Below the pieces are notes generated by a model. The model was given only the letters and a program-made list of their open reading frames with translations, searched no databases and was not told the origin of the DNA. Below, piece by piece: positions 1,288 through 19,630 of a stretch of 26,279 nucleotides of DNA. The stretch comes from a virus. The stretch lies in the IMG/VR virus record IMGVR_UViG_3300042090_000404, positions 1 through 26,279 of that record; one strand, 5' to 3'. The translations under genes were made by a program, and so were the position numbers. Within the stretch, counting starts at the first letter, position 1; each line of letters begins with the position of its first letter.

Positions 1288-2415
1288 ATGAGCGTTACCC
1301 CGAATCAGATCGTGGCCTATGGCTGCGCACAAATGCCGGAAGCCGATAGTGTCACGGTCGGTGGCGCCGTCGATTTTACCAAGCGGGTTATGTTTGCTGA
1401 TCTCCCTTACGTTGGTCTCAATGGGTCCGCGAATACGGACACCATCGATATCGTGAGTGGGACTTCGGGAGATACCGGAGTCAAAATTCAGATTTCCGGG
1501 CGCGACGGCGCCGGTGTTATTCAGACCCCTGCCGTTGCGCAGCTTAACGGCACGGCTGTGGTTTCCTATAGCGTGCAGCTATTCCAGCGATTGGAATATG
1601 CGGTGATCACCGGTGGCAGCATAGGCGGGCTCTCTAATCCGGGAGGCACCGCGGCGACTTCGGACGTTGCAGCCATGTCGCATAAACGGATTGTGTCTGG
1701 ACACACGTCTAGTGGGTCTAGCGCCAACACGAGCGGGGTGACACCTCCGCTATTCGGATTGCAGGCCGGCGATGGCACGGCTGTGGGCGCAGCGGTATAC
1801 AATGGCTTAGGAGTGATTATCCGGATCACTGGAGGACCCGGAGCCGGGCAGCTTCGCATGGTCTCTGTGGGCTATAACGGGACCGCTTCCTATGGAACCG
1901 ATATCGTTGCCATTAACCGGGACTGGGGAGTCCTGCCTACAGGATCATCGACATACGATTTGGCATATGGAATGCTATTCGATATCCTGCCTAATCCAGT
2001 GGTCGCAATCACCCGGCTTTTCGTCAATTCGTCAGCGGACATACCTGGAGGAGCGACTAGGACTTATTATGACAAGTTCTTCTTAGTCAATACCAACGGG
2101 ACCACCAGCCTGGTAAATGCTCAGGTGGAATTTCTCAGTGAAAGCCCGGCACTTCCGATCGGCGCGGCGCTCGATTTAGCTCTTGGCTCTGCGCTAAATG
2201 ACAACACCACGATTGCCAATCGGCAGACCGCGCCCGCGAACACCGGCGGGTTTATAGTTCAGCCCTCCCTCATAACGGTTCCTGGAGGCGGGACCATTCC
2301 CTTTGGGAATGCTGCATCGGGCGCGGTTGCTTGTTGGGCCCGCTTGACGCTAAATCCGGGCACGGCGACCTATCAAGGCGCCGTCGATGCGCGGGCAATT
2401 GGTAATACAACGTGA
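1288..2415 (+). CDS. Phage structural protein, Gly/Thr-rich (probable neck or appendage component)
   Basis: This is a 375-residue protein starting at ATG 1288, with GGA at 1279-1281 as ribosome-binding site. It is rich in Gly, Thr, Ser and Val, with few Lys and no long helices. This is typical of beta-structured virion proteins. The first third ('GGAVDFTKRVMFADLP', 'IDIVSGTSGDTGVKIQISGRDGAG') reads like beta-sandwich strands. The middle is a low-complexity Gly/Ser/Thr stretch around residues 110-155. The C-terminus ('SGAVACWARLTLNPGTATYQGAVDARAIGN') resembles ends seen in hypothetical structural proteins just upstream of fibre genes in related phages. Its stop overlaps the next start (GTGA), so it is translationally coupled to the big S74 fibre. 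I infer that it could be the base plate or adaptor on which that fibre sits. No specific function is recognised. Confidence 0.55.
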   Translation: MSVTPNQIVAYGCAQMPEADSVTVGGAVDFTKRVMFADLPYVGLNGSANTDTIDIVSGTSGDTGVKIQISGRDGAGVIQTPAVAQLNGTAVVSYSVQLFQRLEYAVITGGSIGGLSNPGGTAATSDVAAMSHKRIVSGHTSSGSSANTSGVTPPLFGLQAGDGTAVGAAVYNGLGVIIRITGGPGAGQLRMVSVGYNGTASYGTDIVAINRDWGVLPTGSSTYDLAYGMLFDILPNPVVAITRLFVNSSADIPGGATRTYYDKFFLVNTNGTTSLVNAQVEFLSESPALPIGAALDLALGSALNDNTTIANRQTAPANTGGFIVQPSLITVPGGGTIPFGNAASGAVACWARLTLNPGTATYQGAVDARAIGNTT

Positions 2416-5400: not shown

Positions 5401-7271
5401 ATGCTGGCGCAGGGGGCATTGTTTCCAATGGATTGATTTCATGTTTATATAATATCGGTGCCACTACGACTAATTTGATAACGACCATTGGAAGTGCTGG
5501 GGCCGGATTTGGTCATGCCGTAGCTTGGAATTTTTCTAGTGGATATGGAGAAACTGCATTTTTCAATAATATAGACGGCGGGAACACTTTTGATTATATC
5601 TTTTACGATTATACAAATAGCGCGGTGACTCCGTTATTTTATATTGCGAATACGGGTGGATTTTACACCAATTCGACTTTATCGCCTACCGCACTCCAGG
5701 GCTCCACATTTATAGCTTCAACTGCGGGGCAGGCAGGCACAGGCCTTTCGATTGGGTCTAATGCAGATACCTGGGTCGCGATGGCGATGACATATAACGA
5801 CTCTACATTGAGAGTCGTTCCGTATGGACCTTATGGCAATCAACTTACTCCCGCGCTGAATTGTGGAATGTTTCATGGTTATTACGGAGCGGGGGCGGGT
5901 TCGCCACTTGTGCAAGCCTCTACTCAGGTTGCGCATTTTGTGTATGGAAAGCAAAATGCTTTCAATTCGGGAGGCACATCCATCTATGGAGAAGGTGGTT
6001 GTTTGTGGTTAAATGCTTGGGGAGGTTGGAACGGCACTTCTCTCACTTTTACAAGGAGCGTCACTCTTACGAATGGCAGTCAGGTTCAAACCGTACCCGC
6101 GGCCCCGACTTCAAATACCTATTATGTGGGGATGCCGGTTTCCGGGACAGGTATTCCACAAGGTGTGACATTTACTGGTCAAATTTCTGGTACCGCATTA
6201 ACGGTTAACGGGACCTCCGTGACCGGCGGTGTTATTGCGGTTGGACAGCAAATCGCTGGTGCAGGGGTTTCAGGAAGCACATTCATCACTGCCGGCTCTG
6301 GGTCCAATTGGACCGTCAATATTTCTCAAACGGTCTCAGGCACTGTGACATTTACTGTTTTTGCAACTGTTATTATAGCGGTGAATGGATCCACATCCAT
6401 TACACTTAACAATCGTGCGAATTTGGGCACAACTCAAACTTTGACCTTTACTGCGGGGGTGGCGTCAGCAACTCCCGGTGACACGTTCCTTTTTGTGGGG
6501 CAAACTTTTACCCATGATCCGAATGGGGTGGGTTGTCTTGCGGAAACATTCGAAACAGTAGGTGCGGTTTATATCGGCTCTCTTTCTGTCCCTGATTTCG
6601 GGTTCAGAATACAATGCGGGCTAGCTACAAATCTGAATATCGGAGTTCCTTCTGGAACAACCCATGTGCTAGGATATATAGCAGAAATGGATTATTACGG
6701 GCAAGATCAAGGAGGGTCTAATGGCGGCATCGCCTTTTTAGCTGCGCAAGGGGCATCTGGCCGCGATTGGGGTCTGTTCGCTTCCGCTACTGGATTTACT
6801 ATGACAACGACAGGATCGATTGCTCAAATATCTGATCCGACTGCGAAAAAGAATATCACCAAAATTGAGAATGTCCGTGAAATAATCCGAGGCATTCACC
6901 CTGTTACTTTTGATTGGAAGGACGACTTTATAAAGCATAGTCAGGATTCTCCTTACAAAGGTTCCGGCAAGAATTGGGGGTTCATTTCTCATCATCATGA
7001 GGGAATAGGTGGCGTTGTCGATGCCTTCTCTGACCTTGGGTTAGATTTTAGTTCTCATCATCATCCTATTCATGAAATGAGGAAAACAGGACCGTATTTG
7101 CGTACAGGCAAAATCGGAGAGCATACTGGAAAGACTTATACCGCGTTTCAACATCTCGCCTTGCTTCCGGTAGTTTTTCGAGGCGTTCAGCAAGTATGGG
7201 ACGATTTAGACGCCTTAAAGGAACGGGTCTCAGTGCTAGAGGCCCAAAGCGCTTTGCCAACGGTACATTAA
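2412..7271 (+). CDS. Large appendage/tail fibre with C-terminal S74 intramolecular chaperone
   Basis: This 1619-residue fibre starts at GTG 2412, overlapping the upstream TGA. The N-terminus (about 1-110) is a small beta domain. The shaft consists of beta-rich Gly/Ser/Thr/Asn segments with recurring phage-fibre phrases: 'TWTGVQTFS' and 'TWTGVHNFS', and several '(V/A)xIG-x-(A/T)' starts. Two long tandem modules begin at residues 464 and 624. A Gly/Thr-rich inserted module occupies about 1254-1316. The last 146 residues (from Ser1474, 'SDPTAKKNI') match the S74 endosialidase-chaperone family: a conserved SDxxxKxNI start, 'HPVTFDWK', then 'TYTAFQHLALLPVVFRGVQQV' and a terminal coiled coil. In this family the chaperone trimerises the fibre and cleaves itself off at the Ser. 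The gene lies in the neck region, away from the other fibre genes, so a collar or neck whisker is as likely as a tail fibre. Confidence 0.85.
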   Translation: MTTFLDLVRVLVPTGGTVASVSLGLPVAGFLSFSAAGGVDGTTYSYSIQDPNGNSEIGTGVWSLSGNTFNRTTVTKSTNSNNRINLSGQAQLRVCLRAEDTFVTLGTTQMNLSQSYGTIGGPITWTGVQTFSSGAFVSGGELVLQNTIALEMNNSAGSIVGGSVGSLFLKFSDNNTYLDSYDPGSEFIFRGNAYAQLMVIGSNGAVTAASFNGMSGLANPTGTIGLTTVNGVASTAMRSDAAPALSQAITPTWTGVHNFSTNLNLTGTEGNQLGWQIGGSGQQWHMNLNSGGLLYIQDVTHSRFPFQVAGSAANASIYIGTIGVGITTTTPNALLSLGNAITTIKIAAYDDGVSYYGMGVNSGQLTFGAGLSTVSGTAQMVLNFNGTFGVKSQIVVGNLAQLFTPSTAIFTAHSGTNQNLNISAPRNLASGVSLWSVNDADNTYQPLEIAGSQINLTSGNVGIGAAATPDTLLTVNANTVATSVAPPAGTILHIVGSASNPNARIQVDNFGAAGSPILLMRATGGSIGSMSAVTSGQNLFQMQGQGWDGSIYGVGSLINGYAQENWSGTAHGSYLSFITVLPTTTTFAEQMRIWGSGNVQIGSPYTSDLNFIGLTVSGKASIGAALAPDAILTVNANSSAAVAPSAGTNLHVVGGTGASQMFLDAYGGQAIYAARRAQGSLASPSAMQANQNLCSFAGLGYGATGYSSGARAFIALLSAQNWTDTAQATQINFSTTALNSTTLATAMSIFPSGDVGIGTTTDTNGRLIVTGASQAPSNAGGGFGSVAFTTGSGLTTDNQLIFGVYDGGPSSWIQAVKSGTSWNQLDLNPNSGNVSISENAPTGGGLLIGTPSAPAGTSILASQNLTSGSALVASFITSQWRFVAADGVIPRMIVEGYNAIPAFAFAYAGGSGASPSAPGAGQQLCNFNATGFNGTAFTGGAGGMQVYADAAWSPTSNGTHLDLFTTANGSTYPSHRSVLRVQASGGISVSAGGTFYDAGAGGIVSNGLISCLYNIGATTTNLITTIGSAGAGFGHAVAWNFSSGYGETAFFNNIDGGNTFDYIFYDYTNSAVTPLFYIANTGGFYTNSTLSPTALQGSTFIASTAGQAGTGLSIGSNADTWVAMAMTYNDSTLRVVPYGPYGNQLTPALNCGMFHGYYGAGAGSPLVQASTQVAHFVYGKQNAFNSGGTSIYGEGGCLWLNAWGGWNGTSLTFTRSVTLTNGSQVQTVPAAPTSNTYYVGMPVSGTGIPQGVTFTGQISGTALTVNGTSVTGGVIAVGQQIAGAGVSGSTFITAGSGSNWTVNISQTVSGTVTFTVFATVIIAVNGSTSITLNNRANLGTTQTLTFTAGVASATPGDTFLFVGQTFTHDPNGVGCLAETFETVGAVYIGSLSVPDFGFRIQCGLATNLNIGVPSGTTHVLGYIAEMDYYGQDQGGSNGGIAFLAAQGASGRDWGLFASATGFTMTTTGSIAQISDPTAKKNITKIENVREIIRGIHPVTFDWKDDFIKHSQDSPYKGSGKNWGFISHHHEGIGGVVDAFSDLGLDFSSHHHPIHEMRKTGPYLRTGKIGEHTGKTYTAFQHLALLPVVFRGVQQVWDDLDALKERVSVLEAQSALPTVH
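3801..4700 (+). repeat. Two tandem long modules inside the S74 fibre shaft
   Basis: Two consecutive segments start with the same phrase: residues 464 onward (AAATPDTLLTVNA) and 624 onward (AALAPDAILTVNA). Both then run through 'AP-x-AGT-x-LH-(I/V)VG', 'QNL-F', 'YxxGSL/ARAF', 'NW(S/T)-TA' and 'FP/WGSG-(D/N)V-x-IG'. The DNA is also related at the start of each copy (3801-3843 and 4281-4322). A third, more divergent copy is suggested from about 5101 to 5390 ('SAPGAGQQLCNFNATGF', 'AWSPTSNGTHL'). The exact right-hand boundary is approximate. Confidence 0.6.
6171..6359 (+). repeat. Shared Gly/Thr-rich module, copy 4 (in S74 fibre)
   Basis: Residues about 1254-1316 of the fibre. Landmarks: FTGQISGTALTVNG, GGVIAVGQQIAGAGVSGSTFI, then a modified WTVNISQTVSGTVTF end. 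It is preceded by another Gly/Pro-rich module (YYVGMPVSGTGIPQG). Confidence 0.6.
6831..7271 (+). other. S74 chaperone domain and predicted self-cleavage site
   Basis: Encodes residues 1474-1619 of the fibre. Cleavage in this family occurs just before the conserved Ser of SDxxxK, here Ser1474. Lys1479 is in the usual position. The segment that in many relatives reads GFIAQEV is here 'WGFISHHHEGIGG', and a second His triad follows about 20 residues later. Confidence 0.75.
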
Positions 7272-8872: not shown

Positions 8873-9208
8873 ATGCCCGCCTCCCTGATCTCTCAGACGA
8901 GCCTCAACCGGGGCGCAACGATTCTTTTCAACACCACGTTTTATGATCCCTATGGCAACATTATTCAGCCGGTCTCCGCGTTTGTGAATATCGATTATCC
9001 CAATCCCGATGGTTCGCGGGCCCAAGTCACTCTTACTATGGGGGCTTCGTTCCCTCCGGCGGTTAATTGGACCGCGGAATGGGACTCTCGCGGTGCGGGT
9101 ACTGGCACTGTGTTCTGGTCAATTCATACTAATCCATCCGTCCCAATCGCTGTGGAGGATGGGCAGTTTCAATTAACAGCTAATCAAGCCAACCTTACTA
9201 CATTTTAA
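8873..9208 (+). CDS. Small Ig-like virion protein
   Basis: This is a 111-residue protein. Its ATG immediately follows the TAA of the repeat protein, and its own TAA overlaps the next ATG (TAATG). The pattern 'LNRGATILFNTTFYDPYGNII-P', 'VNIDYPNPDGSRAQVTL', 'VNWTAEWDSRGAGTGTVFWSIH', 'VEDGQFQLTANQANL' alternates hydrophobic and polar residues like the seven strands of an immunoglobulin-type sandwich. Small proteins with the same WTAxWDSRGA core occur beside DUF3383-sheath genes in related phages. I therefore take it to be a minor virion decoration or neck protein. No catalytic motif is seen. Confidence 0.55.
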   Translation: MPASLISQTSLNRGATILFNTTFYDPYGNIIQPVSAFVNIDYPNPDGSRAQVTLTMGASFPPAVNWTAEWDSRGAGTGTVFWSIHTNPSVPIAVEDGQFQLTANQANLTTF

Positions 9209-9927
9209 TGGCAACACTCGCTCCGAACCAATCGCAAATACAAACTGTCCTGCGGTCTTTCCTGCTTTCCGTCCTTCCGGGAGGCGTAGAGGTTGTGCAG
9301 GGTCAGGACAACCTTGTTTCGGAGCCTGCGGGCGCAGATTTCGTGGTTATGACCCCGCTCTCGCGAGACCGTATTGAGACGAACGTAGACACGTTCGCGG
9401 ACATTTCTTTTACGGGCTCGATTACCGGAAGCCTTTTGAGCATTACAGAAGTGCAGTTTGGGGTCCTCGGGACTTCGACCATGCCCGAAGTATTCGGCAC
9501 GATGGTGAATGCCGGCACTTATGTAACAGGGCAAGTGTCCGGGACAATAGGCGGGGTCGGGGTCTACACAGTCACAGGCACTCAAACGAGCGGCGTCCAA
9601 CCGATGGCTGCTGGCCAAGTCTACTTCCTGCAACCGACCAAGATCAGGATGCAACTTGACGTTCATGGACCGAATTCTAGTGATAATGCCCAAACGATTT
9701 CGACTCTCTTTCGAGATCAATTTGCGGTATCGTTCTTTCAGAATTCCGGTTATGATGTTTGGCCTTTATATGCAGATGATCCTAAACAAATTCCTTTCCC
9801 CAACGCAGAAATGTTGATTGAATATCGTTGGGTGATTGATGCGGAGTTGCAAGCAAATCAGGTGGTGGGAGGGTTCCCACAGCAATTCGCAAATACATTC
9901 AACGTTAATCTAATCCAGGTTCAGTGA
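9208..9927 (+). CDS. Neck / tail terminator protein (gp12-like, LIC_12616 type) with inserted module
   Basis: This 239-residue protein starts at ATG 9208, overlapping the upstream TAA. The N-terminus ('LRSFLLSVLPGGVEVVQGQDNLV', then 'DFVVMTPLSRDRIETNVDT') and C-terminus ('MQLDVHGPNSSDNAQTISTLFRD', 'VWPLYADDPKQIPF', 'QQFANTFNV') match the phage neck terminator family. This family caps the tail tube and connects the tail to the head. Residues about 66-136 interrupt this fold with a Gly/Thr-rich module ('FTGSITGSLLSIT ... VSGTIGGVGVYTV') that also appears in the sheath, the J-like wedge and the S74 fibre. The gene lies 7 bases before the sheath gene, the expected order for terminator then sheath. 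Confidence 0.8.
   Translation: MATLAPNQSQIQTVLRSFLLSVLPGGVEVVQGQDNLVSEPAGADFVVMTPLSRDRIETNVDTFADISFTGSITGSLLSITEVQFGVLGTSTMPEVFGTMVNAGTYVTGQVSGTIGGVGVYTVTGTQTSGVQPMAAGQVYFLQPTKIRMQLDVHGPNSSDNAQTISTLFRDQFAVSFFQNSGYDVWPLYADDPKQIPFPNAEMLIEYRWVIDAELQANQVVGGFPQQFANTFNVNLIQVQ
9403..9615 (+). repeat. Shared Gly/Thr-rich module, copy 1 (in terminator)
   Basis: Residues 66-136 of the terminator. Landmarks are FTGSITGS-LSIT at the start and SGTIGGVGVYTV near the end. The core SGTxGGVGVY is the same as in the J-like wedge copy. Confidence 0.7.
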
Positions 9928-9934
9928 GGACAAT

Positions 9935-11680
9935 ATGACCACGATCCCGGTCGGCCAACTTATCAATGTGACTCCAAACGTCCTTCCTGCTGGTGGGGAC
10001 GCTTTGTTCTTGAATGGGTTAATCCTGACAACCTCTACGGGTCGCGTGCCTTATGGATCGGTGCAATCTTTCCCGACCGCGGCGGCAGTGGCCACGTTTT
10101 TCGGAGCCTCTTCGAAAGAGGCGTCCCTGGCATCCGTGTATTTTAACGGATACATAGGCGCATCGGCAACGCCAGGGGCTCTTCTGTTCACTACTTATCC
10201 GAACACAGCCATAGCTGCGTTCCTCCGGGGAAGCAGCGTTGCGTCCCTTACCCTGACGCAGTTGCAGGTGCTTTCAGGGACACTTAACCTGACGGTCGAT
10301 GGCTATGCGAGGAACGTAGCTAACATCAGCCTTGCCGCCGCGGTCTCTTTCTCGAATGCCGCGACGATCATGCAGACTGCCTTAAACGGCTCTGCGCCGG
10401 CTAACCTGTCCTCGTTTACGGGCTCGCTTGCCGGTGGCACGATGACGGTTACAGGGCTCACGAGTGGCACGATTAACCCCGGAACGACGGTTAATGGAAC
10501 TGGCCTTAGCTCTCCCTCCGGCGTGATCATCCTCGCGCAGCTTTCTGGGTCCACGGGAGGAACCGGGACATACACCGTTACGTCGGCGGGCACCCTAGGA
10601 AGTCAGACCTTAAGCACGGCAGCGGTCCCGATCACGGTGACTTATGACTCCGTCTCAGGAGGCTTTTTATTCACCTCAGGGAACACCGGAAACCTGTCTA
10701 GCATTCAATATGCGACGGGCCTGCTTGCTACGTCCCTGAACCTTACTCAAGCGACGGGTGGCGTTATTTCGCAGGGTACGGCGGCCGGAACTCCGGGGCC
10801 GTTTATGAGCTCGATCATTAACATCACCCAGAATTGGGCGCTCTTTATGACCGCCTTCAATCCGGACTCGGTGGTCGGGGTGAACACTAACAAGTTGCTC
10901 TTCGCGCTATGGACTTCGCAACAGAACGATCGTTATGGTTATGTTGCTTGGGATACCGATGCAAGCCCGACTGTTACTGTTCCCGCGGCCTCTAGCCTAG
11001 GCCAGGAGGTTATTGCGGCCGGTTATTCGGGAACGTTCTGCATTTGGGAGCCTTCCGAGACCTATGTGGCCGCTTTCATCTTGGGCATTGCGGCTGCGCT
11101 CGACTTCTCGCAAACCAATGGGCGGGCGACCTTCGCCTATCGCAGTCAATCCGGTCTAACTCCGGGGGTTACAGACCCGACGACGGCCTCTAACCTCATC
11201 GCAAATGGCTACAATTTCTATGGAGCCTATGCGACGGCGAATCAGAACTTCCAGTGGCTGCAACCGGGCTCCGTCTCTGGGCCGTTCGTTTGGATGGATA
11301 GCTATGTTAATCAAATCCAGATGAATGCGCAATTCCAACTCACCCTTGCGGACTTGGAATCTAATACTGGATCGATACCGTACACACCAGCCGGATATTC
11401 GATCATCGCGAATTCCCTTCTAACCCCGATCAATGCCGCGTTGAACTTCGGAACGATCCGGGCAGGTGTGACACTTACATCGTCCGAAATTTTGGAGATC
11501 AATTCGGTGGCTGGCAATAATAACGCAGCCAACGCGGTCTCTACTCGTGGTTGGTATTTGCAAGTGTCTGATCCGGGCGCAGCGGTTCGCATTGCGCGCG
11601 GGTCTCCGGTGATGAACTTCTGGTATGCTGATGGTGAAGCGGTCCAGATGATGAGCCTTAACTCTATCGATGTCCAATAA
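9935..11680 (+). CDS. Contractile tail sheath protein (DUF3383 family)
   Basis: This is a 581-residue protein starting at ATG 9935, preceded by GAGGA at 9926-9930. The N-terminus ('IPVGQLINVTPNVLPAGGDALFLNGLIL', then 'VPYGSVQSFPTAAAVATFFGASS', 'GALLFTTYP') is diagnostic of the DUF3383 sheath-like family. The C-terminal part ('WYLQVSDPGAAVRIARGSP', 'YADGEAVQMMSLNSIDVQ') is the conserved sheath domain that links neighbouring subunits. Sheath subunits surround the tube and contract on infection, so the particle is a myovirus. Residues about 159-229 are a Gly/Ser/Thr-rich module inserted in the N-terminal region after a strand pair resembling 'GTLNLTVDG'. The flanking strands continue as 'VPITVTYDSVSGGF', so the module looks like a surface insertion. 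The tube gene follows after a strong AGGAGG ribosome-binding site. Confidence 0.9.
   Translation: MTTIPVGQLINVTPNVLPAGGDALFLNGLILTTSTGRVPYGSVQSFPTAAAVATFFGASSKEASLASVYFNGYIGASATPGALLFTTYPNTAIAAFLRGSSVASLTLTQLQVLSGTLNLTVDGYARNVANISLAAAVSFSNAATIMQTALNGSAPANLSSFTGSLAGGTMTVTGLTSGTINPGTTVNGTGLSSPSGVIILAQLSGSTGGTGTYTVTSAGTLGSQTLSTAAVPITVTYDSVSGGFLFTSGNTGNLSSIQYATGLLATSLNLTQATGGVISQGTAAGTPGPFMSSIINITQNWALFMTAFNPDSVVGVNTNKLLFALWTSQQNDRYGYVAWDTDASPTVTVPAASSLGQEVIAAGYSGTFCIWEPSETYVAAFILGIAAALDFSQTNGRATFAYRSQSGLTPGVTDPTTASNLIANGYNFYGAYATANQNFQWLQPGSVSGPFVWMDSYVNQIQMNAQFQLTLADLESNTGSIPYTPAGYSIIANSLLTPINAALNFGTIRAGVTLTSSEILEINSVAGNNNAANAVSTRGWYLQVSDPGAAVRIARGSPVMNFWYADGEAVQMMSLNSIDVQ
10409..10621 (+). repeat. 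Shared Gly/Thr-rich module, copy 2 (in sheath)
   Basis: Residues 159-229 of the sheath. Landmarks: FTGSLAGGTMTVT, SGTI-PG, NGTGL, then SGSTGGTGTYTVTS. Confidence 0.7.
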
Positions 11681-11692
11681 GGAGGGCGTTAG

Positions 11693-12124
11693 ATGGGATC
11701 GATTACCGCAGCCAATGCGATCTTCTTAATTCAGATACCAGGGCTGATCCCAGTCCCGGTTCAGTTGCAAGGGTTCAGTGCTGATGACATCTTCGATTTC
11801 GACCCGCAAGCCGTGGTCGAGACTTCGATGGGTGTGGATGGCATTTTATCCGGCGGCTTCGTCAATGTCGCTGTGAAGCAGTCCATTACGTTGCAGGCGG
11901 ACTCGGCTTCCAATGACATCTTCGATCTTTGGCAGCAGGCGCAGCGAACGGCGCTCGATGTCCTCACGGCAAATGGGATTGTGACCCTAACCTCGATCGG
12001 GAAGCAATACGCCCTAACAACCGGCTTTTTGACCGACTATCCGCCTGTCCGCGGAGCCGGTAGGATATTGAAGCCGCAAAAGTATGGCGTAACATGGCAG
12101 AGTGTAACCCCGGCGCCGGTGTAA
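11693..12124 (+). CDS. Tail tube protein
   Basis: This is a 143-residue protein starting at ATG 11693, with an excellent AGGAGG at 11680-11685. The length and pattern are those of myovirus tube subunits: an N-terminal 'FLIQIPGLIPVPVQLQGFSADDIFDF', then 'ETSMGVDGILSGGFVNVAVKQSITLQADSASNDIFDLW', and a C-terminal 'GRILKPQKYGVTW'. The tube is the inner hollow channel, built on the hub and surrounded by the sheath. Position directly after the sheath and before the assembly chaperone is the canonical order, which supports the call more strongly than the sequence alone. Confidence 0.8.
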   Translation: MGSITAANAIFLIQIPGLIPVPVQLQGFSADDIFDFDPQAVVETSMGVDGILSGGFVNVAVKQSITLQADSASNDIFDLWQQAQRTALDVLTANGIVTLTSIGKQYALTTGFLTDYPPVRGAGRILKPQKYGVTWQSVTPAPV

Positions 12125-12125
12125 G

Positions 12126-12593
12126 ATGCGAAAAGTTGGAACTGTTACGATTACGGATGAAAATCGGGATAAGGACAAGGTGTTTGTATTGACTGAGATG
12201 CCCGCCAGTCGTGCAGAGCGGTGGGCAACTCGGGTGGTGATGGGCCTGATTAAAGTGGGGGTGGAAATTCCGGAGGAGTCTGGGATGGAAGCAATCGCTA
12301 AAATCGGGCTCCAGGCTCTTGCTTCGCTTTCGTTCGATGATGCACAATTCCTCATGGACGAAATGATGCAGTGCGTCCATATCCTTCCGGACCCGAAGAA
12401 AAACCCGACTTTTACACGCCCTCTTATGGAAGAGGATATTGAGGAAGTTTCCACCCGAGTTAGGCTTAGGTTGGAGGTATTCACTTTGCATACGGGTTTT
12501 TCCTTTCCCGGAAAGCCCTCGATATTGGTGACGGCTTCTCCGGGATTGAACTCCACCCATACCGGAACCTCCCGGCAACAATCGCGACGGTGA
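12126..12593 (+). CDS. Tail assembly chaperone, short (0-frame) product
   Basis: This 155-residue protein has its ATG one base after the tube stop. The N-terminal 125 residues ('LTEMPASRAERWATRVVMGLIKVGV', 'IAKIGLQALASLSFDDAQFLMDEMM', 'EDIEEVSTRVRLRLEVF') are a helical domain. This is the usual look of the gpG-like chaperone that coats the tape measure during tail assembly. The 30 residues after the slip site (12501-12593) are Ser/Thr/Arg-rich and look unselected, as expected for a short read-through tail. The gene lies between tube and tape measure, the conserved place for this chaperone. It is normally made in excess over a frameshifted longer form (separate entry). Confidence 0.8.
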   Translation: MRKVGTVTITDENRDKDKVFVLTEMPASRAERWATRVVMGLIKVGVEIPEESGMEAIAKIGLQALASLSFDDAQFLMDEMMQCVHILPDPKKNPTFTRPLMEEDIEEVSTRVRLRLEVFTLHTGFSFPGKPSILVTASPGLNSTHTGTSRQQSRR

Positions 12594-12736
12594 TTTCGCA
12601 CGATAAAGCAAAACTGCACGAATTGGATACAGTTTACGGACTTCAAGACGTTTATGACATGTTGGAAGTGATAGTTGTCGATTTACATAATCGCAATCTT
12701 GTCGCAGAGCATATGGCCAAAGAGAAAAAATCCTAA
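12126..12736 (+). CDS. Tail assembly chaperone, long -1 frameshift product (gpGT-like)
   Basis: Join 12126-12500 with 12500-12736; predicted 203 residues. After the slip, the -1 frame reads FLSRKALDIGDGF and then 'IELHPYRNLPATIATVIS', 'LHELDTVYGLQDVYDMLEVI', ending at TAA 12734-12736, which overlaps the tape-measure ATG (TAATG). This frame is open only from 12470 and has no good start of its own near its beginning. It reads as a normal acidic helical protein, fills the otherwise non-coding gap 12594-12735, and runs exactly to the tape measure. In lambda and most long-tailed phages the equivalent gpG-T fusion is made by a -1 slip at a low fixed rate, and its T part binds the tail tube or tape measure. 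The 78 extra residues would be the T domain. Confidence 0.8.
12494..12500 (+). promoter_or_regulatory. Programmed -1 ribosomal slippery heptamer GGGTTTT
   Basis: In the 0 frame the bases read acG-GGT-TTT, exactly the X-XXY-YYZ arrangement. After a one-base backward slip both tRNAs re-pair as GGG and TTT. The heptamer falls inside the only window (12470-12593) where both frames are open. Confidence 0.75.
12503..12515 (+). other. Small inverted repeat just after the slip site
   Basis: CTTTC-CCG-GAAAG can form a 5-bp stem with a 3-base loop, two bases after the heptamer. It is closer than typical stimulatory structures, so a role in frameshifting is uncertain. Confidence 0.3.
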
Positions 12737-14163
12737 TGCCGACTGTCATTGATACTCTTATTATTCAATTGGGTTTGGATACGAAGCAATTCAGTGCGGC
12801 GCAAAAGAAGGCTGTTCAAGAGGCGAAAGACGCTAGCAAGAAAATTCAAGATTCTGCGGATGCTGTTCAACAGGTCTACAGCAAAGCTCGCAAAGAAGTT
12901 CTTTTGTTTGCTGCGGCCCTCTTAGGCGCGAACGGGATTAAAGAATGGTTTGTTAATACTACTCGGGCAAACGATGCCACTGGTAAGTTCGCCAAGATGG
13001 TGGGGGCGAATACAGAAGAGCTATCAAAATGGCAGGCTGTAGCAGAGCGCGCGGGCGGCTCGGCCGAAGGCATGGGGCAAACTCTCCTAGGCCTTACAAA
13101 GGATATCTCTCAATTAGGTGTACTCGGCCCCTCGGAAAGCCTACAATGGATTAATGCGCTCGGAATAGACCTTCAGAAGTTCCTCGATCAGAAAGGACAG
13201 CTTAAGGATTTTACAGGGCTTATGCTCGCCTTGAATGAGGCTCTGAGCAAAAAGCCTCCGGGTGAGCGCATTCTTTGGGCAGAGCGTCTACATATTGATT
13301 TGCAGAATATCAATGTTCTTGCGGGCACGGCGCCGGAAAAGTTACGCGCCATGTTGCAGGAACAAGAGAAAATTGGGTTCACTACAAAGGATCAATCGGA
13401 AAATTCACGCAAGCTCGTGGCTGCGTGGACGGAATTGACGCAGTTGGTAGGTAATTTTTCGCGCATTCTAATTGACAAGGTGACCCCTCCGCTTACTCAG
13501 ATTTTGGAATTAGTGAATTCTATTCTCAAATTAGCCGGGACCGCATTCTCATTCAGTATTTTGAAACAAGCTGAGAAATATTTGCCTGGGCTTAGTACCA
13601 TAGAAAAGTTGGCGGGGAAAAAATCAGAAGGTGCGGTTGCTGGGGTTTCTCCGGGAGAGAGCGGGGGATTGCGCACAAAGCCCGGCGCCGGCTCGGCGAG
13701 CGCGGGCGTGTGGGCTCTTGCCCGTTCGATACAGAACGAATTCGGAGTCGATCTATTCACGGCCTTTAACGACGTTTTCCATCAGCAATATCGATCTAAG
13801 CACAACGAAGGCCTCGCGGCGGATTTCACCCTTAAGGACCCGAAACAATCGGCTGCGGTCGCCGCGGCGATCCGGGCGAAGTTCGCATCCCTCGGAATTC
13901 AAGGCTCTGTGCTCGATGAGTACACCAATCCTTCGGCGCATGCGACGGGCGGCCATATCCATGTTCAATTCGCAAGCCAAGCCGCAGCCGATCGCTACGC
14001 GGCAGGGGCCGCAGGAGGCGAGACCAATTTCAATATCAATACGGTGAACGTCTCTGCGAACAACCCGCAACAGTTCTCGAATGAACTCGCGGCAGTCTCC
14101 GGGGCGAAGGCCTCGGCGCAGCGTTCCTCTATCGCAACTTCATCTAACAGTGCGGTTCGATGA
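12736..14163 (+). CDS. Tape measure protein with C-terminal M15-like peptidase domain
   Basis: This is a 475-residue protein starting at ATG 12736. Residues 1-300 are helical: 'DTLIIQLGLDTKQFSAAQKKAVQEA' is a typical tape-measure N-terminus, followed by a hydrophobic stretch 'LLFAAALLGANGIKEWF' (residues 56-72). Residues about 325-412 form a separate domain with the M15 D-Ala-D-Ala peptidase pattern: H356-x6-D363 in 'KHNEGLAADF', acidic D394/E395, and H407-x-H409 in 'GGHIHVQF'. These would be the zinc ligands and catalytic acid, suitable for cutting cell-wall peptides during DNA entry. The last 45 residues are the Asn/Ser/Ala-rich tail usual for tape measures. The protein is short for a tape measure, so a short tail is expected. 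Its TGA overlaps the hub ATG. Confidence 0.8.
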   Translation: MPTVIDTLIIQLGLDTKQFSAAQKKAVQEAKDASKKIQDSADAVQQVYSKARKEVLLFAAALLGANGIKEWFVNTTRANDATGKFAKMVGANTEELSKWQAVAERAGGSAEGMGQTLLGLTKDISQLGVLGPSESLQWINALGIDLQKFLDQKGQLKDFTGLMLALNEALSKKPPGERILWAERLHIDLQNINVLAGTAPEKLRAMLQEQEKIGFTTKDQSENSRKLVAAWTELTQLVGNFSRILIDKVTPPLTQILELVNSILKLAGTAFSFSILKQAEKYLPGLSTIEKLAGKKSEGAVAGVSPGESGGLRTKPGAGSASAGVWALARSIQNEFGVDLFTAFNDVFHQQYRSKHNEGLAADFTLKDPKQSAAVAAAIRAKFASLGIQGSVLDEYTNPSAHATGGHIHVQFASQAAADRYAAGAAGGETNFNINTVNVSANNPQQFSNELAAVSGAKASAQRSSIATSSNSAVR

Positions 14164-15083
14164 GCTTTGTCCAAAGACTTTTGAACTTCTCCTTCGTCCT
14201 GGAGAATGGGAAAACGTTCATTGAGTCCGGGACTGATACAGTCACGATTACGGGAGTGCGCGCGAGCGCGAAAATATTGAAGGCCGGCTTCCCGCAAATG
14301 GGAGAAGCGCAAGTTATCATTTACGGCCTAACACTTAGTATTATGAATCAATTATCGACCTTGGGGGCGCGCATTGCGCGACAACCCCGCAACCGGGTGA
14401 TAATTTCGGCGGGCGATGCGGTCAATGGTTTTAGTATCGTTTTTTCTGGCATTATTCAGAATGCCTGGGCAGACTTTTTTCAAGCTCCGGAAGTGCCTTT
14501 CCACATAATCGCCTTCACTGCGCTCGATCTTGCCGTTATCCCCTACACCCCGACTTCGATCAATGGGACCGCTGACGTTGTAACGCTTCTTTCGGGGCTC
14601 GCTACGGCCTCCGGCCTTACGTTCGAAAATAACGGAGTTGCCAATATCAAAGTTTCCAGCATGTATCTGTGGGGTTCTCCACGAGATCAGATTCAGCAGA
14701 TTAAGAACCAGGTGCAGAATACGATAGGGGTGGTGATAGACGGGGATTCACAAACTGGCACTTTGTCTATTTGGCTAAAAGGGGGCTTCCGAAACGGAAT
14801 TGTCCCGGTGATTTCCGCGCAAACGGGCATGATACAATACCCTAGTTTTACACCTAATGGAATATTGGTCAAGACACTTTTTAACAAATCGATTGGGTTC
14901 CAGAAGCGAATTCAGATTGCGAGTAATTTCATTCCGAATAGTAGCGCGACGATCCCGGCGAATGGAGTTTGGGTCGTGTTCGGTTTGGAATACGATTTAG
15001 ACACCCTTATTCCCAGAGGTAAGTGGGATATGACAGTCCAGGCTTACAACCCGAATACGGGCAGCGCTCCGGTGCAGTCTTGA
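14160..15083 (+). CDS. Baseplate hub protein (gp27-like)
   Basis: This is a 307-residue protein starting at ATG 14160, overlapping the tape-measure stop (ATGA). It has the features of hub proteins in small myovirus baseplates: 'GVRASAKILKAGFPQMGEAQVIIYGLTLSIMNQLSTLG' in the first beta domain, 'IIQNAWADFFQAPEVPFHIIAFTALD' in the second, and the family signature 'GMIQYPSFTPNGILVKTLFN' near residue 225. A trimer of this protein forms the ring that joins the tube to the spike. No lysozyme or peptidase domain is fused to it, which fits with the wall-degrading domain residing in the tape measure. The order tape measure, hub, spike is conserved. Confidence 0.8.
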   Translation: MSFVQRLLNFSFVLENGKTFIESGTDTVTITGVRASAKILKAGFPQMGEAQVIIYGLTLSIMNQLSTLGARIARQPRNRVIISAGDAVNGFSIVFSGIIQNAWADFFQAPEVPFHIIAFTALDLAVIPYTPTSINGTADVVTLLSGLATASGLTFENNGVANIKVSSMYLWGSPRDQIQQIKNQVQNTIGVVIDGDSQTGTLSIWLKGGFRNGIVPVISAQTGMIQYPSFTPNGILVKTLFNKSIGFQKRIQIASNFIPNSSATIPANGVWVVFGLEYDLDTLIPRGKWDMTVQAYNPNTGSAPVQS

Positions 15084-15640
15084 GTGATGTCGATACATAT
15101 GGCTATGGGCAACTAGGCCCGGACGATGTCGCATCGGATTATAATGCGTTCATATTTCTTATCAGTCAGGCCTTAGCACGGGTCCGCACAGTTACCCTCG
15201 TTTCCGTAGTCGAGGTCACGAGCCCTACCGGCCCCCTCGCCCCGGTCGGTTTTCTTACTGCACAGCCCCTCGTCAATATGATGGACGGAAACGGCAACTG
15301 TACCCAGCACGGAACAATTTTTAATCTCCCGTACTTCAGGCTTCAAGGAGGAAAGAATGCTGTGGTCATCGACCCTCAGCCTGGAGATATTGGAATTTCC
15401 GTCATTTCTGACCGTGATATATCCTCAGTCAAGAATAATTTGGGGATTTCTAATCCCGGTTCTACTCGGCTCTTTGATCTGGCAGATGGAATTTACATCG
15501 GCGGAATTCTGAATGGAATCCCTACTAACTACATTTGGTTAGATTTGCTAGGAAATATTAACGCAGTCTGTACCGGAGCTTTCAATATCACGGCTCCGGG
15601 TGGTCTAATTGTTAATGGAACACCGGTAACGTTACCATGA
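15080..15640 (+). CDS. Baseplate spike protein (gp138-like N-terminal domain)
   Basis: This is a 186-residue protein. TTG at 15080 overlaps the hub TGA (TTGA) and is the start that gives the conserved N-terminus. The longer in-frame reading from 15023 would lie inside the hub gene. Residues about 15-105 form an OB-fold-like domain ('IFLISQALARVRTVTLVSVVEV', 'GFLTAQPLVNMMDGNG', 'FNLPYFRLQGGKNAVVIDPQPGDIGISVISDRDIS') characteristic of the gp138 family that punctures the outer membrane. The C-terminus ('GNINAVCTGAFNITAPGGLIVNGTPVTLP') is the short beta-helix tip seen in this group. No HxH metal motif is present at the tip. Position between hub and plug fits. Confidence 0.8.
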   Translation: MSDVDTYGYGQLGPDDVASDYNAFIFLISQALARVRTVTLVSVVEVTSPTGPLAPVGFLTAQPLVNMMDGNGNCTQHGTIFNLPYFRLQGGKNAVVIDPQPGDIGISVISDRDISSVKNNLGISNPGSTRLFDLADGIYIGGILNGIPTNYIWLDLLGNINAVCTGAFNITAPGGLIVNGTPVTLP

Positions 15641-16263
15641 CTTATCCGAATGTACCGATAGCTCCAGGCGTGCCCCCTATCCCGCGCGATCCTCTCGCGG
15701 TCGCGTTGAACGTCGCTCTTTTGACTGCTGATGCTTTTGGCCTCCTTTTCGGCAACGGTTCTAACCAATGGGGACTTTTCCAAAATGGTTCTGCGGTAAT
15801 TCTTGCCGATAACGTCACTGCGCTTGATTTCCGGAAAGACTGGATTATTGCGAGCTATCCGGTGCAGCGCGGCGCTTTCGAGAGCTATGACAAGGTACAA
15901 ACACCTTTCGAGATGCGCCTTCGTTTTACCACTGGCGGCACAGTCGCCGAGCGGCAGGCCTTCCTAAATTCCATATTCAATATCGCCGGGACTACGAACC
16001 TATATGATGTCTATATGCCAGAGGCGAGCTTTTCGAGCGTTTGTATTAAGCATGTAGACTTCGATCGCACCGCGCAATCGGTTGGCCTTCTCGCTGTGGA
16101 TGTTTGGGTTGAGCAAGTGGTGCAGGCCGCTGTTCCGTCCTTTTCTAATACAGCCTCCCCGAATTCGGCCTCTCCCGTTGCACAAGGTCAAGTGCAAACT
16201 CAGACCCCAACGCAGGCGCAGATGGCCGGTATCGTGTCCATGTTCGCGATCGGGGTCACATAA
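15637..16263 (+). CDS. Baseplate adaptor / tail protein
   Basis: This 208-residue protein starts at ATG 15637, overlapping the spike TGA. It has a Pro-rich N-terminus ('YPNVPIAPGVPPIPRDP'). A middle domain reads 'NQWGLFQNGSAVILADNVTALDFRKDWIIASYPVQRGAFESYDKVQTPFEMRLRFT', then 'ERQAFLNSIFNIAGTTNLYDVYMPE' and 'GLLAVDVWVEQV'. This pattern is recurrent beside the hub and spike genes of phages with DUF3383 sheaths. It looks like a Dit- or LysM-adaptor-type protein that holds wedge proteins around the hub. The C-terminal 45 residues are a flexible Gln/Ser/Pro tail. The general role as a baseplate component is well supported by context; the exact equivalence is uncertain. Confidence 0.6.
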   Translation: MTYPNVPIAPGVPPIPRDPLAVALNVALLTADAFGLLFGNGSNQWGLFQNGSAVILADNVTALDFRKDWIIASYPVQRGAFESYDKVQTPFEMRLRFTTGGTVAERQAFLNSIFNIAGTTNLYDVYMPEASFSSVCIKHVDFDRTAQSVGLLAVDVWVEQVVQAAVPSFSNTASPNSASPVAQGQVQTQTPTQAQMAGIVSMFAIGVT

Positions 16264-16577
16264 TGTTGATCGTTCCGACCGCCTCTATTGCATCTCAAAC
16301 GGTCGATGTGGTCGTTAACAATCAGATCGTTCAGCTTGCCATTTACCAAAAGGTTTTTGGCGTCTTTATGGACGTATATGTAAATAATCAACTTATTATC
16401 GGAGGCGTTCTCTGCCTGAATGTGACGCGCATAGTGCGCTCTTTGTATTTGGGATTTTCTGGAGATTTCATATGGTATGATACTCAGGGAACTTCTCAGC
16501 CTTATTATACAGGCATTGGTTCTCGCTATCTTTTAGTGTATCTGTCTCCGTCAGATTTGCCGGCGGGAGAAGGTTAA
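16263..16577 (+). CDS. Baseplate plug protein (cyanophage Pam3 gp18-like)
   Basis: This is a 104-residue protein whose ATG overlaps the upstream TAA (TAATG). The sequence 'QTVDVVVNNQIVQLAIYQKVFGVFMDVYVNNQLIIGGVLCLN' followed by 'YLGFSGDFIWYDTQG' and 'GIGSRYLLVYLS' matches the small all-beta plug domain described for the cyanophage Pam3 baseplate, which closes the bottom of the central channel. Length is right for a single-domain plug. The gene sits between the adaptor and the gp25-like wedge gene, the arrangement expected for this compact baseplate type. Confidence 0.75.
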   Translation: MLIVPTASIASQTVDVVVNNQIVQLAIYQKVFGVFMDVYVNNQLIIGGVLCLNVTRIVRSLYLGFSGDFIWYDTQGTSQPYYTGIGSRYLLVYLSPSDLPAGEG

Positions 16578-17012
16578 ATGGCCTCCACTCTCCTTCTCGA
16601 TACTGTGGCCTGGGATTTGGTGGTGGATTCGAATGGCAATATTGCCGTCGCATCTGATCCTTATTCTCTTGCTCAAGATGCTGCTTCGGCCATTCGAACT
16701 TTCCTCGGGGAAGTCTATTATGACACGACTATCGGGGTGCCATATTCTGAAATTCTAGGTGAGTTTCCGCCGATCGCACTTCTCAAACAACAATTAGTGG
16801 ATGCTGCTTTGACGGTTCCTGGAGTTCTGAGTGCGCAAGTATTCATTTCCGCTATTGAAGGTCGAACTGTTTCAGGACAAGTGCAAATTACGAGTTCGAA
16901 CGGTCAAACATCGGCGGCAACATTTAGCTCGTTGACATTATCTACAACAACACAGTCGTCCTTGATACTTGGAAATACCCTATTGGGAGGGGCAGATGCG
17001 ATACTTGGATAG
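16578..17012 (+). CDS. Baseplate wedge protein, gp25/GpW-like
   Basis: This is a 144-residue protein whose ATG follows the plug TAA directly. The pattern 'LVVDSNGNIAVASDPYSLAQDAASAIRTFLGEVYYDTTIGVPYSEILG', then 'LLKQQLVDAALTVPGVLSAQV', is the T4 gp25 / P2 GpW family: a conserved Gln before a helix, the GE-x-Y/F-x-D/N turn, G-x-P-Y and a VPGV strand. It forms the core of the baseplate wedge with the J-like protein. The C-terminal end overlaps the start of the next gene by 17 bases. In most phages the J-like gene comes next; here two unrelated genes intervene. Confidence 0.85.
   Translation: MASTLLLDTVAWDLVVDSNGNIAVASDPYSLAQDAASAIRTFLGEVYYDTTIGVPYSEILGEFPPIALLKQQLVDAALTVPGVLSAQVFISAIEGRTVSGQVQITSSNGQTSAATFSSLTLSTTTQSSLILGNTLLGGADAILG
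16985..16992 (+). promoter_or_regulatory. Ribosome-binding site fixing the start at 16996
   Basis: GGGAGGGG lies inside the gp25-like gene 3-6 bases before ATG 16996. It supports that ATG over the in-frame TTG at 16969. Confidence 0.6.
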
Positions 17013-17925
17013 GATACTTATTGCGATCAACCTATTCTTCTTGTTGTCTAGCACTGCTGACGCACAGACTAACCCCGGTCTGGTCGATGGGGCGATACTA
17101 TGCGCCAATACATCTGCCTGTACGGGCAGAAGTGCAAATCCGAGCGGCCTCAATCAAATACTTAGTAACAAGGCGGATTATCCTATAAATCCATCGTCAG
17201 TTCCAGGAGTCAAGGGAGTTGTTTTCTCAGGCACCCCTTCCGCGGGATACGTGCCAGTTGCGTCCGGATCAGCGGCAGCTACTTGGACGCAATGCGTGAA
17301 CATCGGAATTTCATCTTGCGGTGCGACTATTCCCGCTTCATTAGCTTGCGGAGTGCCCTGTCTCGATTTAGGTGGTGGATTGGTCCTTAATCTTGCTCAA
17401 CAGTCTTATTATGCAATGGGACCATTTGCCGGGATTGCCTTTTTTTCTGCCACTAATCCCGCGATGACTGTCGCCCCCGCCTGGGCGTTTTCCTTAAATG
17501 GAAGTGGCGCGGAAGCTCTTATCTATAGCAATAACAATTTCGATTCTATTCAGGCGACCGCCTTTAGCACTACATCAACACTTTGGACATTTGGAATTGG
17601 AGTGCAATTCGATGTAAACCCAATCGTTGCTACATCAGGTGCAGGCGCCGCCATTACGATAAATGGTCCATCCGGTTATTCAGCGCAAAATCTTTTGCAA
17701 GTAAACGGCAGCACTTTGGGTGCTATGTACGTTGATGCATCTCAGACAATTATGGGATCAGTGACTGCAAATCCATTGAAATTGATTTATAATAATTCGG
17801 CAGTTTTGACAATGACCAATATCTCTATGAATGTTCCTGGTTTGCCAACTTCTGCTGGCAGCGGTGGGCTCTATATTTGCGTAGACACGTCTGGTAACTT
17901 TTACAAAAAGTCCTCTTGTCCATAA
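16996..17925 (+). CDS. Exported fibre-like protein with signal peptide
   Basis: This is a 309-residue protein. A typical Sec signal peptide covers residues 1-23 (charged start, hydrophobic ILIAINLFFLL, then ADA|Q). The mature protein starts QTNPGL, the same as the mature start of the fibre at 21505. It continues with 'LNQILSNKADYP', a Ser/Gly-rich 'GTPSAGYVPVASGSAAATWTQC', and beta-rich strands as in tail-fibre shafts. It ends with Cys-containing strands ('GGLYICVDTSGNFYKKSSC'). Seven or more Cys residues suggest disulfides formed outside the cytoplasm. The gene is inserted between the gp25-like and J-like wedge genes. The role is unknown: possibilities are a periplasmic or surface fibre, a receptor-masking decoy, or a virion fibre that passes through the periplasm. 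The signal peptide is clear; the function is inference. Confidence 0.65.
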   Translation: MRYLDRILIAINLFFLLSSTADAQTNPGLVDGAILCANTSACTGRSANPSGLNQILSNKADYPINPSSVPGVKGVVFSGTPSAGYVPVASGSAAATWTQCVNIGISSCGATIPASLACGVPCLDLGGGLVLNLAQQSYYAMGPFAGIAFFSATNPAMTVAPAWAFSLNGSGAEALIYSNNNFDSIQATAFSTTSTLWTFGIGVQFDVNPIVATSGAGAAITINGPSGYSAQNLLQVNGSTLGAMYVDASQTIMGSVTANPLKLIYNNSAVLTMTNISMNVPGLPTSAGSGGLYICVDTSGNFYKKSSCP

Positions 17926-17937
17926 AGGGTGCCGTTC

Positions 17938-18168
17938 ATGCGTGTAATTTTGCTCCTCCTGTTGTCAACTGCAATTGCGGAAGCACAGTTGTTGCAATCG
18001 CCTTCGTCATCTCCAACTATTACTGAGGTCGATGTTTTAGGAGACATTATCTCCCAGCAGGCCAAATTTAATGCTCGTTTGATGGTGCAGTTAAACACGT
18101 TGCAATCTGAACTTGTTCGTGAAAAAGCGCGTGCGGAAGCTGCGGAGGCAAAATTAAAAAAGGAATAA
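17938..18168 (+). CDS. Small exported coiled-coil protein
   Basis: This is a 76-residue protein. ATG 17938 has AAGGG at 17925-17929 as ribosome-binding site; an in-frame GTG at 17929 overlaps that site. Residues 1-16 are a signal peptide (MRVILLLLLSTAIAEA|Q). After a Ser/Pro linker, residues about 30-76 form a continuous helix with heptad-like hydrophobic spacing ('IISQQAKFNARLMVQLNTLQSELVREKARAEAAEAKLKKE'), probably a coiled coil. No lipobox Cys is present, so it is not a canonical outer-membrane spanin. If the signal is not cleaved it could be a membrane-anchored i-spanin-like protein, but it is short for that. It is paired with the exported fibre-like gene upstream. Confidence 0.6.
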   Translation: MRVILLLLLSTAIAEAQLLQSPSSSPTITEVDVLGDIISQQAKFNARLMVQLNTLQSELVREKARAEAAEAKLKKE

Positions 18169-18172
18169 TTTA

Positions 18173-19630
18173 ATGGGCACCAATGTCCCGTCACCCACCT
18201 TCGGTGCCAACGGGTTCATCATCCCGACCGAAGAACAGATTTTGGCCGGGGTCACTGCGGACATTAACGCGGCCTTCGGAGGCAATCTCAACCCTGGCCT
18301 TACTACTCCGCAGGGGCAACTTGCTAGCTCCATGGCGGCGATTATTGGGAACGCTGATTCGACCTTTCTCTATTACACGACCCAAGTGGACCCGGCCTAT
18401 GCGCAGGGCCGCATGTTGGATGCTATCGCCCGAATTTACTTTTTGGAACGCAATCCTGCGGAGCCCACCGTTTTGCAGGTCTCCTGTAACGGAGCGCCGG
18501 GGGTGGGTATCCCTTTGAATGCTCTTATTCAAGATAACGCAGGCAACACCTACACTTGCACAGGGTCCGGAGTAATCGGCGCGAGTGGGTTTGTAGTGCT
18601 GGAATTCGCTAATCTGGTGCCCGGTCCTTCCCCGGTCCCGGAATTCGGCTCCCTGACCATTTATCAAGCAATTCCGGGCTGGGATAGCGCCGGCCTCGTT
18701 TCGGGAGCGGTGGGAGTTTCTACCGAAAGTGATCAAGCGTTCGAAACACGCCGCGCGGCATCGGTCGCGGTAAATTCGATCGGCGCGCTCAATTCGATCC
18801 AAGGCGCAGTTCTCGCAGTGCCCGGAGTGTTAGGAGCATATGTCACAGAGAATACCGGCTCGACATCATCCGTCGTGGGTGGTGTTACGCTTGCGCCGAA
18901 TTCGGTTTATGTCGCGGTATCCGGTGGAAGTGCGTCGGCCATCGCGCAAGCTATTTGGTCGAAAAAGGCGCCGGGATGCGCTTACAATGGCAACACGACT
19001 GTTGTCGTACAAGACACAAATCCAGGGTATTCGCCGCCTTACCCGACTTATAATGTCACATTTGAAATACCGTCTAACCTTCCGATCGTTTGGACTGCGA
19101 CCATAAAGAATAGCCCATCGGTCCCTTCCAATGCGTTTGCGCAGATTCAGACCGCGCTTTTGAATGCTTTCGCCGGGGGCACCTTCGGAGGCACCCCCAT
19201 CCCGGCCGCTCAAATAGGCTCGGTGATCTATGCCCAGCAATACGTGGCAGCGGTTACTGCGCTCGGCGCTTGGGCTCAGGTGATTACCCTGCAAAATGGT
19301 TCACCGAATACTCCGTCCGCGGTCGCTACCGGGTCTTGTGGCGGAACTGTCCTGCATGTCACCGCGTTAACGTCAGGTACAATCACAGTCGGGCAATGGT
19401 TGACGTCCGGAAGCAGTATTTCGGGCACTGCCGCTTTTATGGTAGGGACCCAGATATTAAGCCAGATTTCAGGAACCGTGGGAGGCGTCGGAGTCTATGG
19501 ATTAAGCGTAGGGCAGACATGTCCTAGTCAATCCATAAGTTTCATTACTGCGAACCAGAATTTTGTATCGGTTAACATCAATCAATTTCCCACATTGGCT
19601 GCGACTGATATAAGTTTGGTGCTGGTCTAA
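18173..19630 (+). CDS. Baseplate wedge protein, J-like, with inserted module
   Basis: This is a 485-residue protein starting at ATG 18173, with AGGA of the preceding gene's end as ribosome-binding site. It shows the baseplate J-like pattern: 'GFIIPTEEQILAGVTADINAAFGGNLNPGLTTPQGQLASS', 'DPAYAQGRMLDAIARIYFLERNPA', a Cys-containing beta insertion, 'STESDQAFETRRAASVAVNSIGALNSIQGAVLAVPGVLGAYVTEN' and 'NSVYVAVSGGSASAIAQAIWSKKAPGCAYNG'. J-like proteins link gp25-type wedges around the hub. Residues about 386-457, near the C-terminus, are the Gly/Thr-rich module shared with the terminator, sheath and S74 fibre. The true last strands ('NFVSVNINQFPTLAATDISLVLV') follow it. The gene overlaps the DUF2612 gene (TAATG). 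Confidence 0.85.
   Translation: MGTNVPSPTFGANGFIIPTEEQILAGVTADINAAFGGNLNPGLTTPQGQLASSMAAIIGNADSTFLYYTTQVDPAYAQGRMLDAIARIYFLERNPAEPTVLQVSCNGAPGVGIPLNALIQDNAGNTYTCTGSGVIGASGFVVLEFANLVPGPSPVPEFGSLTIYQAIPGWDSAGLVSGAVGVSTESDQAFETRRAASVAVNSIGALNSIQGAVLAVPGVLGAYVTENTGSTSSVVGGVTLAPNSVYVAVSGGSASAIAQAIWSKKAPGCAYNGNTTVVVQDTNPGYSPPYPTYNVTFEIPSNLPIVWTATIKNSPSVPSNAFAQIQTALLNAFAGGTFGGTPIPAAQIGSVIYAQQYVAAVTALGAWAQVITLQNGSPNTPSAVATGSCGGTVLHVTALTSGTITVGQWLTSGSSISGTAAFMVGTQILSQISGTVGGVGVYGLSVGQTCPSQSISFITANQNFVSVNINQFPTLAATDISLVLV
19328..19543 (+). repeat. Shared Gly/Thr-rich module, copy 3 (in J-like wedge)
   Basis: Residues 386-457. Landmarks: GGTVLHVTALTSGTITVGQ, then ISGTVGGVGVYGL. It is closest to the terminator copy at its end and to the sheath copy at its start. 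Confidence 0.7.

Follow-up and report, generated by a model that had tools for sequence, protein, structure and literature searches.

On sequence comparison, the neck/tail terminator, the tail sheath and a J-like baseplate wedge protein of one contractile-tailed phage carry copies of a single homologous Gly/Thr-rich domain of ∼62 residues, and alignment with relatives indicates that in each of the three it is a clean insert rather than part of the core fold. We consider it probable (roughly 0.6) that this module is an old, optional and independently folding barrel insert that serves as outward surface decoration or as a spacer. The DNA analysed is an IMG/VR virus record of 26,279 bases (hereafter the window), which holds the tail gene block of the phage. 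The proteins concerned, and the gene that follows the wedge protein, are:

9208..9927, + strand: host protein 1, neck/tail terminator (PF23961, Pfam E 9.6e-18; phrog_1876, E 1.1e-36)
9935..11680, + strand: host protein 2, contractile tail sheath (DUF3383/PF11863, Pfam E 3e-108; AF2 model)
18173..19630, + strand: host protein 3, Baseplate_J wedge protein (PF04865, E 3e-9; phrog_6, E 9.5e-46; E217 gp44, E 2.3e-16)
2412..7271, + strand: host protein 4, long tail fibre with C-terminal S74 chaperone (PF13884, over cut-off)
19630-20310: DUF2612

The window sheath and J protein group with those of Pseudomonas phage E217, and the nearest cultured relative of the J protein is found in Acetobacter phage phiAO1 (48% identity). 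Both core fold and sequence place the sheath in the DUF3383 family: an AF2 model of the whole protein (pLDDT 90) matches the E217/Pa193 sheaths with VIA Z 33.9-34.9 over 454-456 residues, in addition to the PF11863 match listed above. The terminator matches to PF23961 and phrog_1876 are each split into two stretches.

One domain in unrelated virion proteins

Copies of the module were delimited as profile envelopes, and the wider inserts in the terminator and sheath are given beside them:

9409..9600, + strand: module, terminator copy, residues 68-131 (HMM iE 2.1e-15; leave-one-out E 2.3e-7)
9406-9615, + strand: whole terminator insert, about residues 67-136
10415..10606, + strand: module, sheath copy, residues 161-224 (HMM iE 6.9e-16; leave-one-out E 8.5e-6)
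10400-10633, + strand: whole sheath insert, about residues 156-233
19325..19531, + strand: module, J-like wedge copy, residues 385-453 (HMM iE 2.9e-16; leave-one-out E 3.6e-8)
6171..6344, + strand: module, weaker S74 fibre copy, residues 1254-1311 (HMM iE 4.5e-11; phrog_38233, E 3e-6)
6075..6194, + strand: partial, divergent module copy in the fibre, residues 1222-1261 (HMM iE 1.2e-6)

The pairwise scores of terminator and sheath (z 10.4), sheath and J (z 9.2) and terminator and J (z 7.6) were reached by none of 2000 shuffles, and a profile of three copies recovers the fourth when this is the terminator, sheath or J copy (E values as listed). The fibre copy scores z 3.7-3.8 against the other three, a score that 3-8 of 2000 shuffles reach, and is missed by the leave-one-out profile of the remaining three copies. 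It is independently supported by the fact that it and the sheath copy match the same region of phrog_38233 and phrog_21413 (fibre E 3e-6 and 8e-5). An iterated profile scores it at 7e-8, but the fibre copy was among the seeds of that profile. The module also lies within profile segments of phrog_21413 and phrog_38233 (tail fibre), which 47 and 46 of 54 members, respectively, match at E<1e-3; both are whole-protein families in which it is neither named nor delimited. The partial fibre copy lies directly upstream of the fibre copy and overlaps it; adjoining tandem copies are likewise common in the sheaths of relatives.

An initial annotation of the sequence had placed the segments correctly, in coordinates and in residues, and its claim that four proteins share the module holds for terminator, sheath and J (leave-one-out E, as rounded, 2e-7 to 9e-6, with J lower still), and less strongly, through the phrog matches, for the fibre.

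The composition of the module is strongly biased (58.6% Gly/Ser/Thr/Ala; 3.1% charged), which raises the question of convergence towards a Gly/Thr-rich low-complexity sequence with no homology at all. Given the leave-one-out matches, the order and spacing of the invariant Gly and Tyr, and a set of 24,992 reversed or locally shuffled decoys in which the iterated profile found not one domain below 1e-3, we attach next to no credence to this explanation. It is refuted for the terminator, sheath and J copies; the refutation is weaker for the fibre copy.

Insertion at constant sites

Among 101 related loci the iterated profile found 223 module copies in 86 loci, the window counted. With near-identical contigs included, the module is present in 48 of 65 full-length sheaths (none, one, two or three copies in 17, 16, 29 and 3), in 30 of 53 terminators (none, one or two copies in 23, 29 and 1) and in 66 of ∼87 J proteins (one, two or three copies in 54, 7 and 5; ∼21 without). 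Some relatives scored as lacking the module are undercounts, as in L004, whose sheath carries a divergent insert at that site. Five J proteins of 612-671 residues (L086, L089, L091, L097 and L100) contain three modules, laid out as one module, a spacer of ∼50-55 residues and two modules in tandem.

The position of the module is constant, the same three sites being used in the sheath, terminator and J protein of relatives. Alignments of proteins with and without the module put the terminator junction between TFADIS and QPTKIRMQLDVHG, and terminators without it lack the entire stretch between TFAD and QPTK..QLDVHG. The sheath junction falls between IMQTALNG and VTYDSVSG; in sheaths without the module ..IQTAFT runs straight into ..VTYDS. 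The J junction lies between NGSPNTPSA and NFVSVNINQFPTLA. Since the J segment C-terminal to the module is also present in J proteins that have no module, the J copy is internal, ∼25 residues before the C-terminus.

The module had been described as interrupting or extending its hosts. It does interrupt the terminator and sheath, but the J copy is an internal insert and not a C-terminal extension. Homologues without the module exist for all three well-sampled proteins and bear out its status as an optional insert, placed at defined sites of unrelated folds. The sheath and J protein of E217/Pa193 (gp31, gp44) share the folds of their counterparts in the window (Z 34-35 for the sheath, E 2e-16 for J), but no module was found in them, and their sheath has 504 residues as opposed to 581 in the window.

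History of the copies

With near relatives left out, the nearest relative of a module was a copy in the same protein family of another phage for 126 of 183 copies, a copy in another protein family of another phage for 55, and a copy in a different protein of that very phage for just one. Mean identity between copies in different proteins is 39.9% within a phage and 40.0% between phages. At the DNA level cross-protein identity reaches a maximum near 76%, with no long high-identity DNA common to different proteins. Together these results indicate that the slots were filled long ago and that descent has since been mostly vertical.

They also bear on the proposal, made in the initial annotation, of a mobile module spread within one virion. 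Taken as recent spread, or as concerted evolution, among the genes of a single virion, this would account for the several copies per genome and for the correlation of presence between slots (Fisher p 4e-5 to 5e-4, uncorrected for kinship and with few independent pairs). Yet copies cluster by protein slot, and the rarity of same-phage nearest relatives, the equal identities and the lack of shared high-identity DNA make such an explanation very improbable. Concerted evolution within a genome is rejected by the nearest-relative counts, the equal identities and the DNA identity peak. On a sheath-core tree, several branches of which are weakly supported, the pattern of presence needs at least 5 changes for the sheath, 7 for the terminator and 6 for J.

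Because module dN/dS is mostly 0.1-0.5 (many pairs being near saturation) and the modules evolve about as fast as their host proteins, they are under constraint. Cultured relatives lack the module, so virions of this type can do without it. This absence, and the frequent absence at each slot, might be expected of a neutral passenger, that is, a well-folding domain that inserts where it is tolerated and persists without benefit. We find this improbable: the module is kept to ∼45% identity under purifying selection like that of the host protein, and it undergoes tandem expansion, not decay, although some of this could follow from the demands of folding alone.

A predicted barrel

Modelled on its own, with 54 relatives, the module is predicted to form six strands (pLDDT 92). 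When Foldseek candidates were compared using VIA, the best matches were the domain-2 barrels of elongation factors and the N-terminal barrels of F1-ATPase, at a borderline Z of 8.1 or less: eEFSec gave Z 8.1 with 70 residues aligned and an rmsd of 2.5, a range that the tool itself notes as common for unrelated folds, and eEF1A, IF2 and F1 gave Z 5.5-7.3. These borderline matches suggest a six-stranded barrel of the elongation-factor domain-2 type. The translation-factor and F1 barrels, which we take to be of the ECOD RIFT-related type, resemble the six-stranded barrel predicted for the module, but identity is 6-17%, the Foldseek matches are not significant and no shared function is expected. 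RIFT-related domains have been described from tail and neck proteins, with no naming of the module found there (PMC10684548).

The module was not found in any solved structure. Among predicted viral structures it turns up again (E down to 2.7e-5; the best matches have 26-45% identity), in models that carry the annotations HK97 major capsid, P22 gp10 and side tail fibre. A similar module is also seen in predicted structures of two collagen-repeat proteins of the giant virus Indivirus (BFVD A0A1V0SCQ2 and A0A1V0SDM6; 26-39% identity), which may point to exchange between phages and viruses of eukaryotes.

The best direct Foldseek match in the PDB, a weak one (E 0.086, TM 0.66, 22-23% identity), is a small accessory chain of the capsid of Arthrobacter phage Bridgette (8eci chain 1), a separate protein of 124 residues and a candidate cement protein only; Bridgette is reported with dimeric capsid cement proteins (PMC13033339). 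The match speaks for cementing, in which barrels of neighbouring subunits would touch and so stabilise sheath, neck, baseplate and capsid in the manner of head decoration proteins, as does the stability suggested by Evseev et al. for extra sheath domains (PMC9230969). We nevertheless regard cementing as unlikely, if not strongly so: the Bridgette match is weak, a matching partner surface would be required each time, and the same domain occurs at unrelated positions of unrelated proteins and fibres and is often missing at any slot.

Extra sheath domains sit away from the tube (PMC9230969). Going by aligned ranges, the sheath insert would lie inside the segment of domain A, which is present in E217 and absent from the R2 pyocin sheath (PMC10329688). 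A surface location of the module is consistent with these data, and the sheath insert could contact a neighbouring subunit instead of projecting freely.

Gly, Thr, hydrophobic residues or Tyr/Trp occupy the conserved columns of the module, and no charged patch is conserved, although column counts could miss a patch on the surface. The low charge and the lack of a charged patch favour a folded, near-neutral knob or spacer over a specific binding site. Were the module a small adhesin that raises avidity for a host or environmental glycan, its multi-copy display on the virion, its tandem arrays and its occurrence beside a GH5 cellulase domain in a bacterial protein and in a secreted fn3 protein would all make sense. 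We rate such specific carbohydrate or receptor binding as improbable too: the conserved columns (Gly, hydrophobic and one Tyr/Trp) show none of the clusters of aromatic, charged or polar residues that mark a typical binding site, and no carbohydrate-binding family matches the module.

Comparison with Ig-like domains

By analogy of use, not of membership, the nearest known counterparts are the Ig-like domains of tailed phages, reportedly the subject of Fraser et al. in 2006. Ig domains usually have 80-100 residues. Those of phages (Big_1, Big_2, I-set, FN3) are optional all-beta domains of fibres, baseplate, tail tube, capsid and decoration proteins; they are exposed, dispensable for assembly where tested and sometimes needed for full infection efficiency, and weak surface binding has been proposed for them (PMC9022992). 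The module resembles them as an optional domain found across classes of virion protein (sheath, terminator, J, minor head, fibre), but differs in its ∼62 residues, in being inserted internally at fixed sites in sheath, terminator and J and, if the borderline fold matches hold, in having an elongation-factor-type barrel in place of an Ig sandwich. No Ig family exceeded the cut-off in the 54 members (one sub-threshold Big_15 match, E 0.0038), and Ig chains appear only low in the Foldseek list, the best VIA matches being barrels of elongation-factor or F1 type, although absence from such a list is no proof against an Ig sandwich.

Distribution among phages

All 19 uncultivated relatives that were searched whole have 2-6 module copies per record, whereas phiAO1 has no copy at all, and the sheath and J matches listed for named phages leave no room for one. 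In relatives the module also occurs in a minor head protein (phrog_2122; PF23982, XM1 gp53, in one), in a head protein (phrog_1912), in two further tail-gene products and in fibres, and the data support a family common to phage structural proteins generally. Three minor head proteins have two tandem copies (L015:5872-6798, the one with PF23982 XM1 gp53; L104:2816-3799; L132:9335-10255), so that head and tail of one phage both carry the module.

No Pfam, NCBIfam or PDB sequence family covers the module, neither one module nor the 54-row profile found a relative among PDB sequences, and the terminator profile found only one weak chain in the PDB (E 0.025). Its consensus strings were not found in the literature searched. 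Neither single modules nor the consensus had a tblastn match in named phages and plasmids; this blank is probably due to low-complexity masking and is not evidence of absence.

A possible role

On the surface decoration or spacer reading, an all-beta barrel domain of ∼62 residues would occupy inserts in those loops of virion proteins that are exposed to solvent. In the lineage of myophages with DUF3383 sheaths the insertions would be old and would now pass on mostly by vertical descent, each slot having seen repeated losses, gains and tandem duplications. Compact, near-uncharged knobs rich in Ser, Thr and Gly would project from sheath, neck, baseplate, head and fibres, leave the assembling cores undisturbed and provide weak, non-specific contacts with surfaces or polymers. 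The adhesion or particle stability put forward in the initial annotation may be among the functions of such knobs.

A bolder idea, which we offer tentatively and with more doubt than confidence, is that the module is an undescribed, virus-wide mobile surface domain of non-Ig type, common in uncultivated and rare in cultured phages, that coats the heads, necks, sheaths, baseplates and fibres of one particle with near-neutral Thr/Gly knobs and thereby sets how the virion sticks or slips through its surroundings.

Promiscuous surface domains of phages have so far been described mostly as Ig-like, and the module adds a second kind, apparently of different structure. Relatives with and without it define its limits well, neither Pfam nor NCBIfam has a name for it, and it marks the exact insertion-tolerant sites of the sheath, terminator and J folds. 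The natural pairs with and without the module make the function of such domains testable.

Occurrence in bacterial genomes

Module loci are found in GTDB genomes of several phyla, many of them phage-like, but the module is uncommon: 2 of 142 alphaproteobacterial genomes have it, one being the genome on which the search was centred. A Mesorhizobium prophage (L135) bears modules in its sheath, terminator and J protein. Some other proteins with the module are not obviously of phage origin. A Roseicella protein of 1,399 residues (L109:7160-11356) has a GH5 cellulase domain at 61-398 and two module copies at 948-1079; its four neighbouring ORFs have no Pfam match. On the strength of this protein the module may exist outside phages. 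A secreted Bacteroidota protein of 2,296 residues (L138:6934-13821) combines GEVED, fn3 and a Por secretion tail with five tandem copies at 569-875. At L120:7208-12922, a Pfam E1_FCCH match just above the cut-off (859-918) adjoins a module copy (932-993), and E1_FCCH matches in such proteins may represent a distant relative of the module. Sphingopyxis flava has one copy on each of three separate contigs (L125, L126 and L127), in proteins of 445-533 residues.
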